Notes under the pieces: model-generated
Told to the model about the DNA's origin: nothing
The model's database searches: none
What the model saw: the letters and a program-made list of their open reading frames with translations, nothing else
Program-made: the position numbers and the translations under genes
Shown: in pieces, positions 9,435 through 14,829 of the stretch
Layout of the letters: each line of letters opens with the position of its first letter
Numbering within the stretch: the first letter of the stretch is position 1
Assembly: GCF_017656495.1 (NCBI RefSeq)
Contig: NZ_JACDNS010000014.1
Coordinates: forward strand, 1 to 54,998
Source of the DNA: Thermococcus sp.
GTDB lineage: Archaea; Methanobacteriota_B; Thermococci; Thermococcales; Thermococcaceae
Reading direction: 5' to 3'
DNA length: 54,998 nucleotides

Positions 9435-10037
9435 ATGGAGTTCGAAGCAATTGGAGTATATGCTAAGCCTATACTAACGCTCGCTGTTTTAATATATCTT
9501 GTGTACATTTTCGTTATTAAAAAAGAAGAATTCAAAAAAGCTCAAGTTGTGGCAATCTCAGCAATTATGACAGCTTTAGTGACAGTTGCAACAATTGTAA
9601 TTCAGGTTCCAACCCCTCCAACAAGGGGATACATCAACCTTGGAGATACAATGGTCATGCTGAGCGGTGTGCTGTTTGGTCCGCTGGTTGGAGCATTCGC
9701 TGGAGGATTTGGTTCAGCTCTGGCAGATGCAATCACTGGCTATGCACACTGGGCACCTTTTACATTGATAATTAAGGGTCTCGAAGGATTAGTTGTTGGA
9801 TATATAGCTCACAAGAGAGAAGACTTCACAGGAATACTTATAGGAACTATAATCGGCGGATTCATCATGGTCTTTGGATACTTCCTTGTTGAAGTGTTCT
9901 TCTACGGCTATCCAAATGCTATAGTTGAAGTTCCAGGAAATACTCTCCAAGCAGTCAGTGGAATAATAGTTGGTGGAGGATTAGGATACACAATAAAGAA
10001 AAGATATCCAGACATAGTCAATCTCATTCAAGGTTAA
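9435..10037 (+). CDS. ECF transporter S component (riboflavin/vitamin type, PF07155-like)
   Basis: 200 aa from the ATG at 9435, 6 nt behind GGAGGTG. The frame opens at a GTG (9420) ahead of the SD. Six hydrophobic helices are visible. Motifs typical of the energy-coupling-factor substrate-binding subunit with the riboflavin-transporter fold are present: GYINLGDTMVMLSG, then GAFAGGFGSALADAITGY, then WAPFTLIIKGLEGLVVGY. The S component captures a vitamin and docks onto a shared EcfAA'T module, which is not in this window. The first helix (residues ~10-30) is an extension before the S-core. A 26-bp palindrome overlaps its start site, which suggests ligand-dependent repression. Confidence 0.82.
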   Translation: MEFEAIGVYAKPILTLAVLIYLVYIFVIKKEEFKKAQVVAISAIMTALVTVATIVIQVPTPPTRGYINLGDTMVMLSGVLFGPLVGAFAGGFGSALADAITGYAHWAPFTLIIKGLEGLVVGYIAHKREDFTGILIGTIIGGFIMVFGYFLVEVFFYGYPNAIVEVPGNTLQAVSGIIVGGGLGYTIKKRYPDIVNLIQG

Positions 10038-10315
10038 ACTCTCTGTATTTCTTCCCACATTTCCCTTTCTTTGAAAAGAGGTTCTATTGATATTCTCCTC
10101 GAAGCCCTCTTAAGTTGTCCCAAGTATTGAGAGTCCGCAATCACAGCATCGGAATTAAGCTCTTTTATCTCATAGACAGCAAGCTGACAATCTTGAATTA
10201 TCTCAGCTGCATGCTTCAGAAATTCAGGGCCAGCAAGCATTATATCTGGATTTAAGCCCTCCTCTTTGAGCTCCTCAATGGCAGATTTTAAGATTTCATA
10301 AAGCTCTTCCTTCAC
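10034..10315 (-). CDS. Family 4A (A-domain-only) encapsulin shell protein
   Basis: 93 aa. Its pattern matches the small single-domain HK97-fold proteins of Thermococcales (PF0899/PDB 2PK8 type): an N-terminal helix, [14 protein letters not shown], a variable middle, then a hydrophobic strand, [25 protein letters not shown]. These proteins correspond to the A-domain of viral capsid and encapsulin shells and are classed as family 4 encapsulins, found in two-gene operons with metabolic enzymes. Here the partner is deoC: the start codon overlaps the deoC stop by 4 nt, so both are made from one mRNA. Whether it forms a compartment or only a scaffold around the aldolase is unknown. It overlaps the end of the ECF gene by 4 nt (convergent). 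Confidence 0.75.
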
Positions 10316-10983
10316 TTCTTAGCACCCTCCACAATTTTTACTCCACTTGATGTGCCGATTCTGTTTGCTCCCGCTTTTATCATTTCTAAAGCCTGCTCAT
10401 ATGTTCTGATTCCCCCAGCAGCTTTAACTCCAAGCTTGTCTCCGACAACTCTCCTCATCAGCTTAACATCCTCCACCGTGGCTCCTCCTGTTCCAAAGCC
10501 TGTTGAAGTCTTTACAAAGTCAGCTCCCGCTTCCATTGCCAGCTTACAAGCCATTTCTTTCTCCTCATCTGTTAGATAGCACGTCTCAATAATTACCTTC
10601 ACTATAGCTCCTTTTTCGTGAGCAACTCTAACAACCTCTTCTATGTCCCTCTTGACGTAGTCATAATCTTGATCTTTCAATGCCCCAATGTTTATGACCA
10701 TATCAAGCTCATCAGCACCGTCTTCGAGGGCTTTTTTTGCTTCAAAGACCTTGACCTCTGTGGGTGTTGCACCTAATGGGAAGCCGATAACAGATGCAAC
10801 TTTTACATTAGTGTCTTTCAATTGTTCCTTTGCTAGCTTTACGCGATAGGGATTTACACATACAGCATAAAAGCCGTATTTCTTAGCCTCCTCACATAAC
10901 TTGATTATATCCTCCTTTGTAGCATAAGGTTTCAAATTGGTGTGATCAATATACCCAGCAATATCAATCCCCACAACCATCAC
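10312..10983 (-). CDS. deoC: 2-deoxyribose-5-phosphate aldolase, probable encapsulin cargo
   Basis: 223 aa TIM-barrel aldolase that interconverts 2-deoxyribose-5-phosphate with acetaldehyde and glyceraldehyde-3-phosphate in deoxynucleoside breakdown. Catalytic residues are all present: Schiff-base Lys158 (DFVKTSTGF), Lys187 (GVKAAGGIR) and Asp94 (DELDMVIN). The phosphate site GTSSG is at the C terminus. Start is uncertain among ATG 10983, ATG 10980 and a nearby GTG, because GGTG directly abuts the first ATG. A TATA box (minus strand CTAAATATA, ~11005-11013) gives a short leader. It is the first gene of a two-gene operon with the family 4A encapsulin. Confidence 0.95.
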
Positions 10984-11179: not shown

Positions 11180-12115
11180 CTACTCTTGAGGATTACTTTC
11201 TTTGGACTTTTCTATGTGCTTGTAAATTTTCCTCCCAACCAAATAAAGCACTGCAAATGGGGAGAGTATTATGAGAAGAGCGATTATGCCTCTAATTATC
11301 ATTAACAGAATTGCCACTGCCTGGTATACTGTTTTTCTGAAGCCTAAATCAATCTCAAATACAGGTTTTTCTTTACTCTCTATTGTAACATGGTATGTTA
11401 TGTAGTCTGTGACCTTTTCATAGTAGTCTTTCTGGAGGTAGAGATAATTCAAACGGGAGTTTATGCTACTGATTCTAGACTCAATTCTCATTAAATCATC
11501 GATGTCCTTTGAAAGATTATAGAATTCAAGGAGTTTCTTTTTCTCAGCCTCAAGACTTTCAATCTCAGCAAGAATCTGGTTGTATTTGCTTGTTACATCT
11601 TGAGTATCTAAGCGGAGACTTTTAACATTGTATTTTTCCAAGAGTGCCCCAACTTTATTTTCATTTTCTGCCGTATTTGGAATCCTAAACTCAATGTAAT
11701 AAACAACCCTTTCTTCACTCTTGTCAAGATTTTCAGAAGTCACGTATCCTCCTAATGAATAAACCTCAGCTTTTATTTCATTAGCAACCTTTTCAGGGGT
11801 CTCATCTTGGATAATAACATAATAGTCCTTCTTCAGTCTTTGGATTACTTCTTTGGACTTTTCATTATTTGTAATTCCCACTGAGGTTTGGGTGGCAGTT
11901 GGCTTTGTATAAGTCGGAGCATATGCCATCGTTTGCGTGTATGTAATCCTTTCAGCTTCAATGTCCCAACCTTTTTCTTCATAAAGCGGGGGTTGATACT
12001 TCGGCTCACTTCCAACTCTAAAAGAAGCCCCGCTCTGAAAAACCTTTGAGACAACAAACCCAGCGACGATTATCACCACAACCAAAAGAACTATCCCAAT
12101 ATTTCTTTTATGCAT
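11180..12115 (-). CDS. DUF4349 membrane-anchored extracytoplasmic protein
   Basis: 311 aa from the ATG at 12115 (MHKRN); the frame starts at a TTG upstream of the SD GGTGAG. An N-terminal signal anchor (residues ~4-24) is followed by a Tyr/Thr-rich stretch. The DUF4349 core then runs through VIIQDETPEKVANEIKAEVYSLGGYVTSENL, a DVTSKYNQILAEIESLEAEKKKL coiled coil and a second coiled-coil strand. A C-terminal helix (~270-295) and a basic tail close the protein. DUF4349 proteins are exported, membrane-tethered and of unknown function. Its promoter carries the same palindrome, in the same position, as the next CGP-CTERM gene. Confidence 0.78.
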   Translation of the reverse strand: MHKRNIGIVLLVVVIIVAGFVVSKVFQSGASFRVGSEPKYQPPLYEEKGWDIEAERITYTQTMAYAPTYTKPTATQTSVGITNNEKSKEVIQRLKKDYYVIIQDETPEKVANEIKAEVYSLGGYVTSENLDKSEERVVYYIEFRIPNTAENENKVGALLEKYNVKSLRLDTQDVTSKYNQILAEIESLEAEKKKLLEFYNLSKDIDDLMRIESRISSINSRLNYLYLQKDYYEKVTDYITYHVTIESKEKPVFEIDLGFRKTVYQAVAILLMIIRGIIALLIILSPFAVLYLVGRKIYKHIEKSKESNPQE

Positions 12116-12165
12116 AGCTCTCACCAAAAAATATTACTCATGATCACATTTAAGAGTTATTAAAG

Positions 12166-12183
12166 CTTCAAAATGATTTGAAG
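12166..12183 (-). promoter_or_regulatory. Palindromic operator upstream of the DUF4349 gene
   Basis: CTTCAAA-N4-TTTGAAG. On the minus strand it directly abuts the TATA element CTTTAATAAC (12156-12165). An element with the same arms and spacing occupies the same place at 13471-13488. Confidence 0.6.
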
Positions 12184-12199
12184 TGAAAATAAAAATATA

Positions 12200-13417
12200 C
12201 TAAAGCCTCCTCTTGAGCAACAAAGGTAGTAAAGCACCTAATATCACAAAGCCAGGCCCACAAATTATATGGCGAGTAGGTATTTCTGAAGTTGATGGGG
12301 TTTGAGTTGTCTCAGTTTGTTGAGGTTTCTCAAGCTCAACTGCGCCTTTTGGCAATCTGTATGTCATTGGCTCTCTAATGCATTTTACAAGCTTAGCCTC
12401 TTTGCTTTCATAATAAGGAATCCATGCATACTTTCCATCTTTAGTCTCATACCATCCTATATGAGAGTTGTAGCCAGCATAACCCCTCTTTGCAACTTTC
12501 ACGATTTCTTCAATGTCTTCATCGCTTATCTTTAGAATTCCATTCTCTTTGAGCCATTCAATTTCAACTCTCAGTGCCTCTTTAAAGTTGAATGTATATG
12601 GATCAACAACTCCCTCCGGCATACTGGTAACTCTCTCCTCAAACTTTATGTTCTCCAAAACACAGCTCATCCCCAAAACTGAAAACAGCTCTTTTATCTC
12701 AGCTCTTTTTTCCTCACTTAGTTCTTTTTGCCCGTAAATTGCAATGTAAACATCCGCTTGTGGCATCTTTATAACTTTACTCGGATCAATTCCATGCTCC
12801 TTAAGACATCGTTCAAAAGCATCATTCGGCTTCCAAGTGCACACACCATTCACACAGCCACAGGTTGTAAGCTTCAAACAGTCATACCAGTCCTTATAAA
12901 CACAAATTGAAACTACTTTTGTCGCATTTTCTCTAGTTGTGCATATTTCCCCAGAGCAGCCTCCTGTAGCACAGTCAGAATCTTTTGAACACTCTCTTCC
13001 CTTTTGAGGTGTTATTTGGACCAGAATGTTCTCTTTCCTAAAAGCATATTTTCCTTCAACTTCCCATCCAAGCTCCTTAGCTTTCTCGATGCTGTTTTCT
13101 GGGAGTATTATTGGTGTTGTAAACTTTGCAGAGAGAACAGTTGAGCTCCAGTTTTTTACGGGGATTTCAATTCTTAAATGAAGTCCTTTGTCTTCCCATA
13201 GCATAACAGCAACTCTTTCGTCGTAATGAGAACGGTAAATTATCCTTCCGCCTTCAATTAAGACATTTTCAGCATTTTTGAGCGGCTCAAGGTTGTATTC
13301 AACTCCAGGTTTGTTGAAGTAAACTTCGACAGCCAAGTTATCGGTTGGACTAAAACATGCCCAAGCGAAAGGAAGTACCGCTAAGAGTAAAATGAAAACC
13401 ACAACATATCTTTTCAT
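12200..13417 (-). CDS. CGP-CTERM-anchored surface protein with an eight-cysteine cluster
   Basis: 405 aa from the ATG at 13417; the frame starts at a GTG (13426) upstream of the SD GGTGAG. It has a signal peptide (~3-22), a beta-rich region, then a compact Cys-rich module at ~145-200 (pattern includes CSKDSDCATGGC, then C..C..CGC...C). After an alpha/beta region comes a Thr/Pro/Gln linker and the Thermococcales sorting signal CGPG plus a hydrophobic helix and KRRL at the very end. CGP-CTERM proteins are exported and processed or lipid-anchored at the cell envelope. Function of the eight-Cys domain is unknown. It shares a palindromic operator with the DUF4349 gene. Confidence 0.85.
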   Translation of the reverse strand: MKRYVVVFILLLAVLPFAWACFSPTDNLAVEVYFNKPGVEYNLEPLKNAENVLIEGGRIIYRSHYDERVAVMLWEDKGLHLRIEIPVKNWSSTVLSAKFTTPIILPENSIEKAKELGWEVEGKYAFRKENILVQITPQKGRECSKDSDCATGGCSGEICTTRENATKVVSICVYKDWYDCLKLTTCGCVNGVCTWKPNDAFERCLKEHGIDPSKVIKMPQADVYIAIYGQKELSEEKRAEIKELFSVLGMSCVLENIKFEERVTSMPEGVVDPYTFNFKEALRVEIEWLKENGILKISDEDIEEIVKVAKRGYAGYNSHIGWYETKDGKYAWIPYYESKEAKLVKCIREPMTYRLPKGAVELEKPQQTETTQTPSTSEIPTRHIICGPGFVILGALLPLLLKRRL

Positions 13418-13470
13418 GACTCTCACCCATTTCTAGTTAATGCTCCCAAGGTATTTATCTTTGCTTATAG

Positions 13471-13488
13471 CTTCAAACCAATTTGAAG
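13471..13488. promoter_or_regulatory. Palindromic operator between the CGP-CTERM gene and enolase
   Basis: CTTCAAACCAATTTGAAG. On the minus strand it abuts the TATA element CTATAAGC (13463-13470) of the CGP-CTERM gene, in the same register as the copy at 12166-12183. It also sits ~20 bp upstream of the enolase TATA (TTTAAG, ~13498), so it might affect both genes. Confidence 0.6.
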
Positions 13489-13536
13489 TGCAAAAGCTTT
13501 AAGTTCTAAAAGTTAACATCACTCGAGGTGATTAAC

Positions 13537-14829
13537 ATGGAGAACCCATTTGAAATTACTGCAATTGTAGCAAGGGAAATCCTAGACTCAAGAGGGAATC
13601 CAACAGTAGAGGTAGATGTCTACACCCCAGTTGCCATGGGAAGAGCTGCTGTGCCAAGCGGAGCATCAACAGGAACGCATGAAGCTTTGGAGCTTAGAGA
13701 TGGTGGAAAGAGATTCCACGGAAAAGGAGTTAGAAGGGCTGTTGAGAACATCAACAAGATTATTGCTCCAGAACTCATTGGAATGGATGTAACATTACAG
13801 AGAGATATTGACATGCTCATGATTGAGCTTGATGGAACTGAGAATAAGTCAAACCTTGGAGCAAACGCTATTTTGGGAGTCTCATTGGCTGTTGCTAAGG
13901 CCGCCGCAAACACCTTAGGCTTGCCGCTTTACCAATACATCGGTGGAACTAACGCTTATGTGTTGCCAGTTCCAATGAGCAATGTCATCAATGGTGGAGT
14001 TCATGCCGGAAATGACCTCGACTTCCAAGAGTTCATGATCATGCCTGTTGGTGCTAAGAGCTTTAAAGAAGCCATTCAGATGGTCAGTGAAACATACCAC
14101 ACACTCAAAAAGATTCTCATGGAGAAATACGGAAAGTTAGCGGTTAACGTTGGTGATGAAGGTGGATTTGCGCCACCAATGAAGGAAGTTACAGAGCCAC
14201 TGGAAGCTCTCGTCAAGGCAATTGAAGAGACTGGATACAAAGTTGGAGATGAAATCGCATTTGCATTAGATGCTGCATCAAGTGAGTTCTACAACGCTGA
14301 AAAGGACAAATACATTGTTGGAGGTAAAGAATACACAAGGGAGGAGCTCATTGACCTTTACAAAGAATTAGTTAGCACTTATCCAATAGTCTCAATTGAG
14401 GACCCAATGCACGAGGAAGACTTTGAGGGGTTTGCAATGGTAACAAAAGAACTTGGAAAGAAGATACAGATTGTTGGTGACGACCTCTTTGTTACAAACG
14501 TGAAGAGATTGAGGAAAGGAATTGAAATGGGTGCAGCAAATGCTCTGCTCTTAAAAGTCAACCAGATTGGAACCTTAAGTGAAGCAATCGATGCAGCTTA
14601 CTTAGCTTTCAGAGCTGGTTACGGAGTTGTTGTTTCACACCGCTCTGGAGAAACCGAGGACGCAACAATTGCAGACTTAGCGGTAGCAATAAACGCTGGG
14701 CAGATTAAGACAGGTGCTCCAGCAAGGAGCGACAGAAACGCAAAGTACAACCAGCTCATCAGAATTGAGGAAGAGCTTGAGGGCATAGCATATTATCCCG
14801 GAAAGAAGTTCAGGAACCCATTCTTCTGA
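13537..14829 (+). CDS. eno: Enolase
   Basis: 430 aa from the ATG at 13537 ([28 protein letters not shown]); a GTG at 13528 lies in the SD GAGGTG. Converts 2-phosphoglycerate to phosphoenolpyruvate. Visible hallmarks: [27 protein letters not shown], the Mg ligands around [20 protein letters not shown] and VGDDLFVTN, catalytic Lys in [10 protein letters not shown], and SHRSGETED. Full length for the archaeal family. A very short leader follows TATA TTTAAG (~13498). T-rich terminator follows. Confidence 0.97.

Follow-up and report, generated by a model that had tools for sequence, protein, structure and literature searches.

SurR and TrmBL1 are Thermococcales regulators with short palindromic sites, that of TrmBL1 (the TGM) being TATCAC-N5-GTGATA. 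Both are soluble and have metabolic targets. ArnR and ArnR1 of Sulfolobus acidocaldarius, reportedly described by Lassak in 2013, are one-component regulators; as far as the accessible parts of the literature go, they have an N-terminal helix-turn-helix (HTH) and two transmembrane segments, they act at inverted repeats upstream of the BRE and TATA box, and they control surface structures. For the boxes bound by ArnR, the available part of PMC6396743 gives positions -43 to -84. Transmembrane transcription regulators (TTRs), which join a DNA-binding domain to a predicted transmembrane region, are a known class for which a census exists; the available part of that census (PMC10269533) notes that Thermococci are rich in TTRs when these are set against other signalling genes, and contains no description of the factor family reported here, its operator or its targets. 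Here we describe a Thermococcus palindrome that we believe, with a probability of roughly three in four, to be the operator of an autoregulated, membrane-integrated one-component factor controlling exported proteins, a proposal drawn from sequence comparison. Like SurR and TrmBL1 this factor would act at a short palindromic site of its own, but unlike them it would not be soluble or have metabolic targets.

The stretch of DNA that was analysed (the window; 54,998 nucleotides) is contig C14 of a host genome of 2,048,078 bases. A pattern search found CTTCAAA-N4-TTTGAAG twice in the window, at 12166-12183 and 13471-13488, exactly where an earlier note had placed it, and not at all in 100 dinucleotide shuffles. 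The note had also held that the motif is neither a SurR site nor a TGM, and this was borne out: the SurR motif, GTTn3AAC (available part of PMC12162507), is absent from the palindromes, and the TGM differs by inspection. Operator 1 (13471..13488, minus strand; CTTCAAATTGGTTTGAAG) is assigned by its exact match and by orthologous upstream regions to a gene at 12200..13426 (minus), which a profile match (578 bits, cut-off 200) identifies as encoding a CGP-CTERM-anchored, Cys-rich protein of TIGR04292. This gene could start with the GTG at 13426, but the ATG at 13417 is more likely. Operator 2 (12166..12183, minus; CTTCAAATCATTTTGAAG) is assigned by its exact match and by 10 orthologues to a gene at 11180..12115 (minus, ATG at 12115), whose product has a DUF4349 domain match and an N-terminal membrane segment. 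Two CGP-CTERM proteins, which may or may not belong to TIGR04292, have been reported to go down in stationary phase (available part of PMC4870337). Nearby, at 10034-10315 and 10312-10983 (both minus), there is an overlapping pair of genes, one for a shell protein of the family 4B encapsulin type (NF041191, 147 bits) and one for a deoC aldolase. We take deoC-linked encapsulins to be a different subfamily, so the model name and the deoC neighbour disagree.

The two copies in the window are the sole exact ones in the genome. When two mismatches were allowed, the whole genome gave 44 matches compared with 51 in the reversed control, and another such scan gave an uninformative 319 compared with 281. 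As these counts are at control level, only near-exact copies are meaningful genome-wide. The relaxed form, CTTCAA-N6-TTGAAG, has four exact sites in this genome, every one upstream of a gene: the two in the window, one at C4:86764 before a small secreted protein gene, with a divergent DUF134 gene on its other side, and one at C7:98248 before a DUF4139-like gene. Places with one mismatch number 28, and 10 of the 11 loci examined lie inside an open reading frame of at least 100 amino acids. Thus, with all four exact sites upstream of genes, exact copies are not as frequent in coding DNA as at promoters; equal frequency was the outcome that the note had named as fatal to its idea. The small secreted protein gene on C4 (86360-86707; L255, L109) has an in-frame TAG in its signal-peptide region in this genome and is open in relatives.

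Comparison across 94 Thermococcaceae genomes was more telling. Summed counts gave 36 sites of the exact CTTCAAA-N4-TTTGAAG, in 26 of the genomes, against one reversed-control site, and 150 sites of CTTCAA-N6-TTGAAG against 33 (149 against 24 when genus g3 is excluded). The palindrome arms are kept while the spacers vary. These results bear on whether the palindrome is a product of chance or a structural DNA feature, such as A/T richness, a cruciform or a terminator, with no regulator at all. The whole-genome two-mismatch count, being equal to its control, would fit such an origin, but the excess of both exact forms, the kept arms, the scarcity of exact copies in coding DNA and the constant TATA distance in unrelated genes described below make it extremely improbable.

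Reading 53 exact-site loci (25 of the strict and 28 of the relaxed form), we found CTTCAA-N6-TTGAAG in front of six gene families: TIGR04292, DUF4349, DUF4139/MuiA-like proteins, serpins, a small secreted protein and one transcription factor. For TIGR04292, which was followed in 68 genomes, the 59 upstream regions outside g3 carry the site with zero, one, two or three mismatches in 20, 20, 16 and 3 cases, with little variation in the distance to the start and with the same TATA after it; at most one mismatch is found in 40/68 regions (dinucleotide-shuffle mean 0.03). The DUF4349 orthologues have nine exact sites and one with a single mismatch among 10 (shuffle mean 0.00), after removal of L319, a partial copy; L438, the same gene as L216, was also dropped before counting. 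DUF4139/MuiA-like genes show 16 exact, 16 one-mismatch and 19 two-mismatch sites among 75 (at most one in 32/75; shuffle mean 0.07). Among the 30 serpin loci that were read of those listed (L279-L308), whose windows reached up to 330 bp upstream because the starts are unfixed, 6, 7 and 14 sites were found in these classes (at most one mismatch in 13/30). The small secreted protein has 6, 8 and 7 among 23 (14/23; shuffle mean 0.07), seven of 30 loci (L264-L270) having been dropped beforehand as partial paralogues. Finally, the factor gene has an exact site in 33 of 75 upstream regions (74 regulators plus the G041 remnant; G049 was left out) and at most one mismatch in 53/75 (shuffle mean 0.07). 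In the shuffle controls, which cover all of these families except the serpins, the mean number of regions within one mismatch thus ranged from 0.00 to 0.07. As the sequences are related, the sites counted do not represent independent events; what is independent is the occurrence of the element in six unrelated gene families. Three secreted Ig-like (Big_14) proteins (L019, L026, L117) also have the site. In two genomes (L018, L121) the palindrome lies between divergent genes for a DUF389/TIGR00341 membrane protein and an unknown membrane protein.

When the six promoter families were aligned on the palindrome, using sites with at most two mismatches, an A/T-only box appeared about 13-18 bp past the palindrome in all six; in this profile arm conservation is partly selected, whereas TATA positions and flanks are unselected. 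The TATA boxes assigned from the alignment are ATAAATA for the TIGR04292 gene (13452..13458, minus) and TTAAATG for the DUF4349 gene (12147..12153, minus), both at positions 13-19 past the palindrome. The earlier note had put the TATA element directly after the last G of the palindrome. Its letters, CTTTAATAAC and CTATAAGC, are present there, but the aligned box starts about 13 bp further on in the six families, and abutting TATA boxes were rejected. The bases next to the palindrome are themselves conserved, with C at +1 in 83% and T at +4 in 94% of the six-family alignment. They are part of a non-palindromic C-N-N-T-S-R extension at +1 to +6, conserved in all six promoter families, which may provide an additional contact or serve as an unusual BRE.

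This geometry suggests an activator, because the gap of about 12-13 bp between palindrome and TATA leaves room for the BRE. Archaeal activators typically sit upstream of the BRE, as the palindrome does. Additionally, the promoters of three families, TIGR04292, DUF4139 and serpin, have no A-run at the BRE position, which suggests that these target promoters need activation; GAAAAG is often present in the promoter of the factor gene itself. The same membrane factor might instead bind the palindrome as a repressor that an envelope signal releases. Most ArsR-fold proteins are repressors, and autoregulated genes are often repressed. However, in all six families the palindrome is clear of the TATA box and of its immediate upstream region, and the three promoter families without an A-run look like promoters in need of help. 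The known analogue ArnR acts as an activator from a position upstream of the BRE (available part of PMC6396743). We therefore consider repression unlikely and favour activation by the membrane factor.

The enolase gene (13537..14829, plus) is divergent from the TIGR04292 gene, and the note had suggested that it might share the regulon through a TATA box about 20 bp from the second palindrome. Its TATA box, CTTTAAG (13497..13503, plus), starts about 9 bp past the palindrome. Among 22 enolase genes that do not adjoin a TIGR04292 gene, none carries the site; one of them (L333) has a two-mismatch match 101 bp upstream, out of register. In G026 and G039, where the two genes are apart, the site remains with the TIGR04292 gene. 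In G093 an exact site lies 134 bp from the enolase start. Membership of enolase in the regulon was rejected on the 22 non-adjacent genes, the adjacent cases having been read in part. Comparison of enolase promoters thus marks this gene as probably a bystander that is not regulated by the palindrome.

The candidate regulator is the transcription factor mentioned above, encoded outside the window at G000:C4:95851-96513. The note had proposed a shared regulator of neighbouring surface-protein genes. This part is supported, but the regulator gene and the other members had escaped it, as they lie outside the window. Overall, its palindrome observation is partly confirmed and its interpretation partly supported. 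The factor gene is present in one copy per genome in 75 of the 94 family genomes. In most relatives the site lies 49-54 bp before its start; in our own genome the promoter has a two-mismatch site only (GTTCAGTTTATGTTGAAG). The homologue-locus search returned 17 regulator loci, labelled in every case as Thermococcus, Thermococcaceae, Thermococcales or Thermococci, and a search across genomes reached further. Members of the regulator family also occur in four more families of the class (L446-L462), with the site kept in three and absent in f3. Of the 17 factor genes from class-level relatives, nine, in the three families, have a site with at most two mismatches, two of them exact, while the eight f3 relatives have none at the factor gene; the f3 operator may have changed. 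Retention of the site at the factor's own promoter, distant families included, is the main link between factor and site.

A second link is that both are missing from genus g3, which is probably Pyrococcus. None of nine g3 genomes has the factor, and relaxed sites there number one compared with nine in controls. All nine g3 TIGR04292 genes lack a match better than five mismatches, whereas all 59 others are within three. The four g3 DUF4139 orthologues and the one serpin examined of two are likewise without a site. This joint absence may reflect a single evolutionary event. The pattern has exceptions. In one g4 clade at least seven regulator genes have no site in their own promoter, while DUF4139 genes there keep a G-variant. 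The regulator of G020 is broken by five stops and exact sites are kept; in G029 and G041 the regulator gene has lost its winged helix (matches only from residue 85) and the site is kept (L465, L209). Stops also occur in the DUF4139 and serpin genes of G029. The persistence of sites in these three genomes counts against a simple story of factor-site loss, and would be expected if another, soluble regulator owned the palindrome and the membrane factor were just one of its targets. That the factor binds the palindrome is, moreover, a prediction. Conversely, the factor promoter has retained its site in three more distant families, no other transcription-factor gene recurs behind the site in the 53 exact-site loci that were read, and factor and site vanish together in g3. 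We judge a soluble owner less probable than even the repressor, and continue to regard the membrane factor as the owner of the site.

The factor consists of an ArsR-fold winged helix followed by two transmembrane helices with a disordered loop between them. In the A2 set of 33 sequences, HTH_20/HTH_5 was found in all and two hydrophobic segments above 1.4 in 32, so that DNA-binding domain and transmembrane region are joined in one protein, as in TTRs. The loop is 27-104 residues long, rich in Ser/Thr/Asn/Pro/Ala and in most of the 33 members has N-glycosylation sequons, and the tail is basic. None of the 33 contains a cysteine, which speaks against Cys-based metal or thiol sensing; the factor thus has the winged-helix fold of ArsR/SmtB without the sensing cysteines. 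In the AlphaFold model the winged helix is mostly above pLDDT 90, helices span 99-133 and 197-219, the first directly following the wing, and the loop at 138-192 is disordered. Structure matches are led by ArsR-family proteins (CzrA: Z 11.7, rmsd 2.5, 79 aligned; Phr 2p4w: Z 11.4, rmsd 3.3, 87 aligned). Phr, PH1932 (1uly) and AbfR2 (6cmv) share the winged-helix fold with the factor, but are soluble and have other C-terminal parts.

Compared with ArnR and ArnR1, as the accessible literature presents them, the factor has the same N-terminal HTH, two transmembrane segments and one-component design, and the position of its site fits. However, in ArnR a HAMP and a sensor domain precede the two C-terminal transmembrane segments, whereas the factor has a disordered loop between its helices, and the Pfam list for our own factor, with almost only HTH-type models, contains no HAMP or sensor model. 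The ArnR operator is a paired TCGAC-N5-GTCGA, unlike the single CTTCAA-N6-TTGAAG found here, and the ArnR targets, archaellum and pili, differ from those of the factor. The best reading is that the factor would work like ArnR but is not a member of the ArnR family. CsmR of Haloferax was tried as an analogue and set aside; the available part of PMC13286277 gave only background on ArnR and EarA. Our search of the open literature, which leaves most subscription journals outside, returned no description of the factor, its site or its regulon.

Based on these results, we propose a model. Comparison supports the site, its fixed geometry, its members, the link to the factor promoter and the joint absence in one genus, and from these we infer binding, activation rather than repression, autoregulatory amplification and the signal. 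A dimer of cytoplasmic ArsR-type winged helices would bind CTTCAA-N6-TTGAAG while the factor remains held in the membrane by its two transmembrane helices. Most likely, binding just upstream of the BRE would recruit TFB/TBP. The factor would thereby switch on its own gene and the exported-protein genes (TIGR04292, DUF4349, DUF4139/MuiA-like, serpin, small secreted protein and Ig-like), and autoregulation would amplify the response. The signal would presumably be a state of the envelope or of the surrounding medium, perceived through the membrane or through the extracytoplasmic loop rich in Ser, Thr and Asn. As the targets read so far are mostly exported or membrane proteins, including protease inhibitors, they fit the content of an envelope-maintenance response. 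More tentatively, this could be an archaeal counterpart of the bacterial envelope-response systems: a class-wide membrane factor of the Thermococci, lost in one genus, that might sense the state of the cell surface, either by its short, disordered external loop or by the membrane itself, and, while still embedded there, directly activate the genes of exported protease inhibitors and anchored surface proteins at one palindrome upstream of each.

Such a membrane-to-gene control circuit for the cell envelope would apparently be undescribed in this lineage. To our knowledge, a site or a set of targets has been assigned to few membrane-bound transcription factors of archaea, and ArnR of Sulfolobus is the one for which both are known; here comparison alone gives the factor along with its operator, promoter geometry and targets. 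The way in which archaea sense and repair their envelope thus becomes directly testable. T. kodakarensis has genetic tools, and T. barophilus is genetically tractable, as mutants in the available part of PMC12162507 indicate. The factor-free genus and the genomes with a broken factor are natural mutants. Additionally, the uncharacterized exported families TIGR04292, DUF4349, DUF4139-like and the Thermococcales serpins are placed in one functional group.
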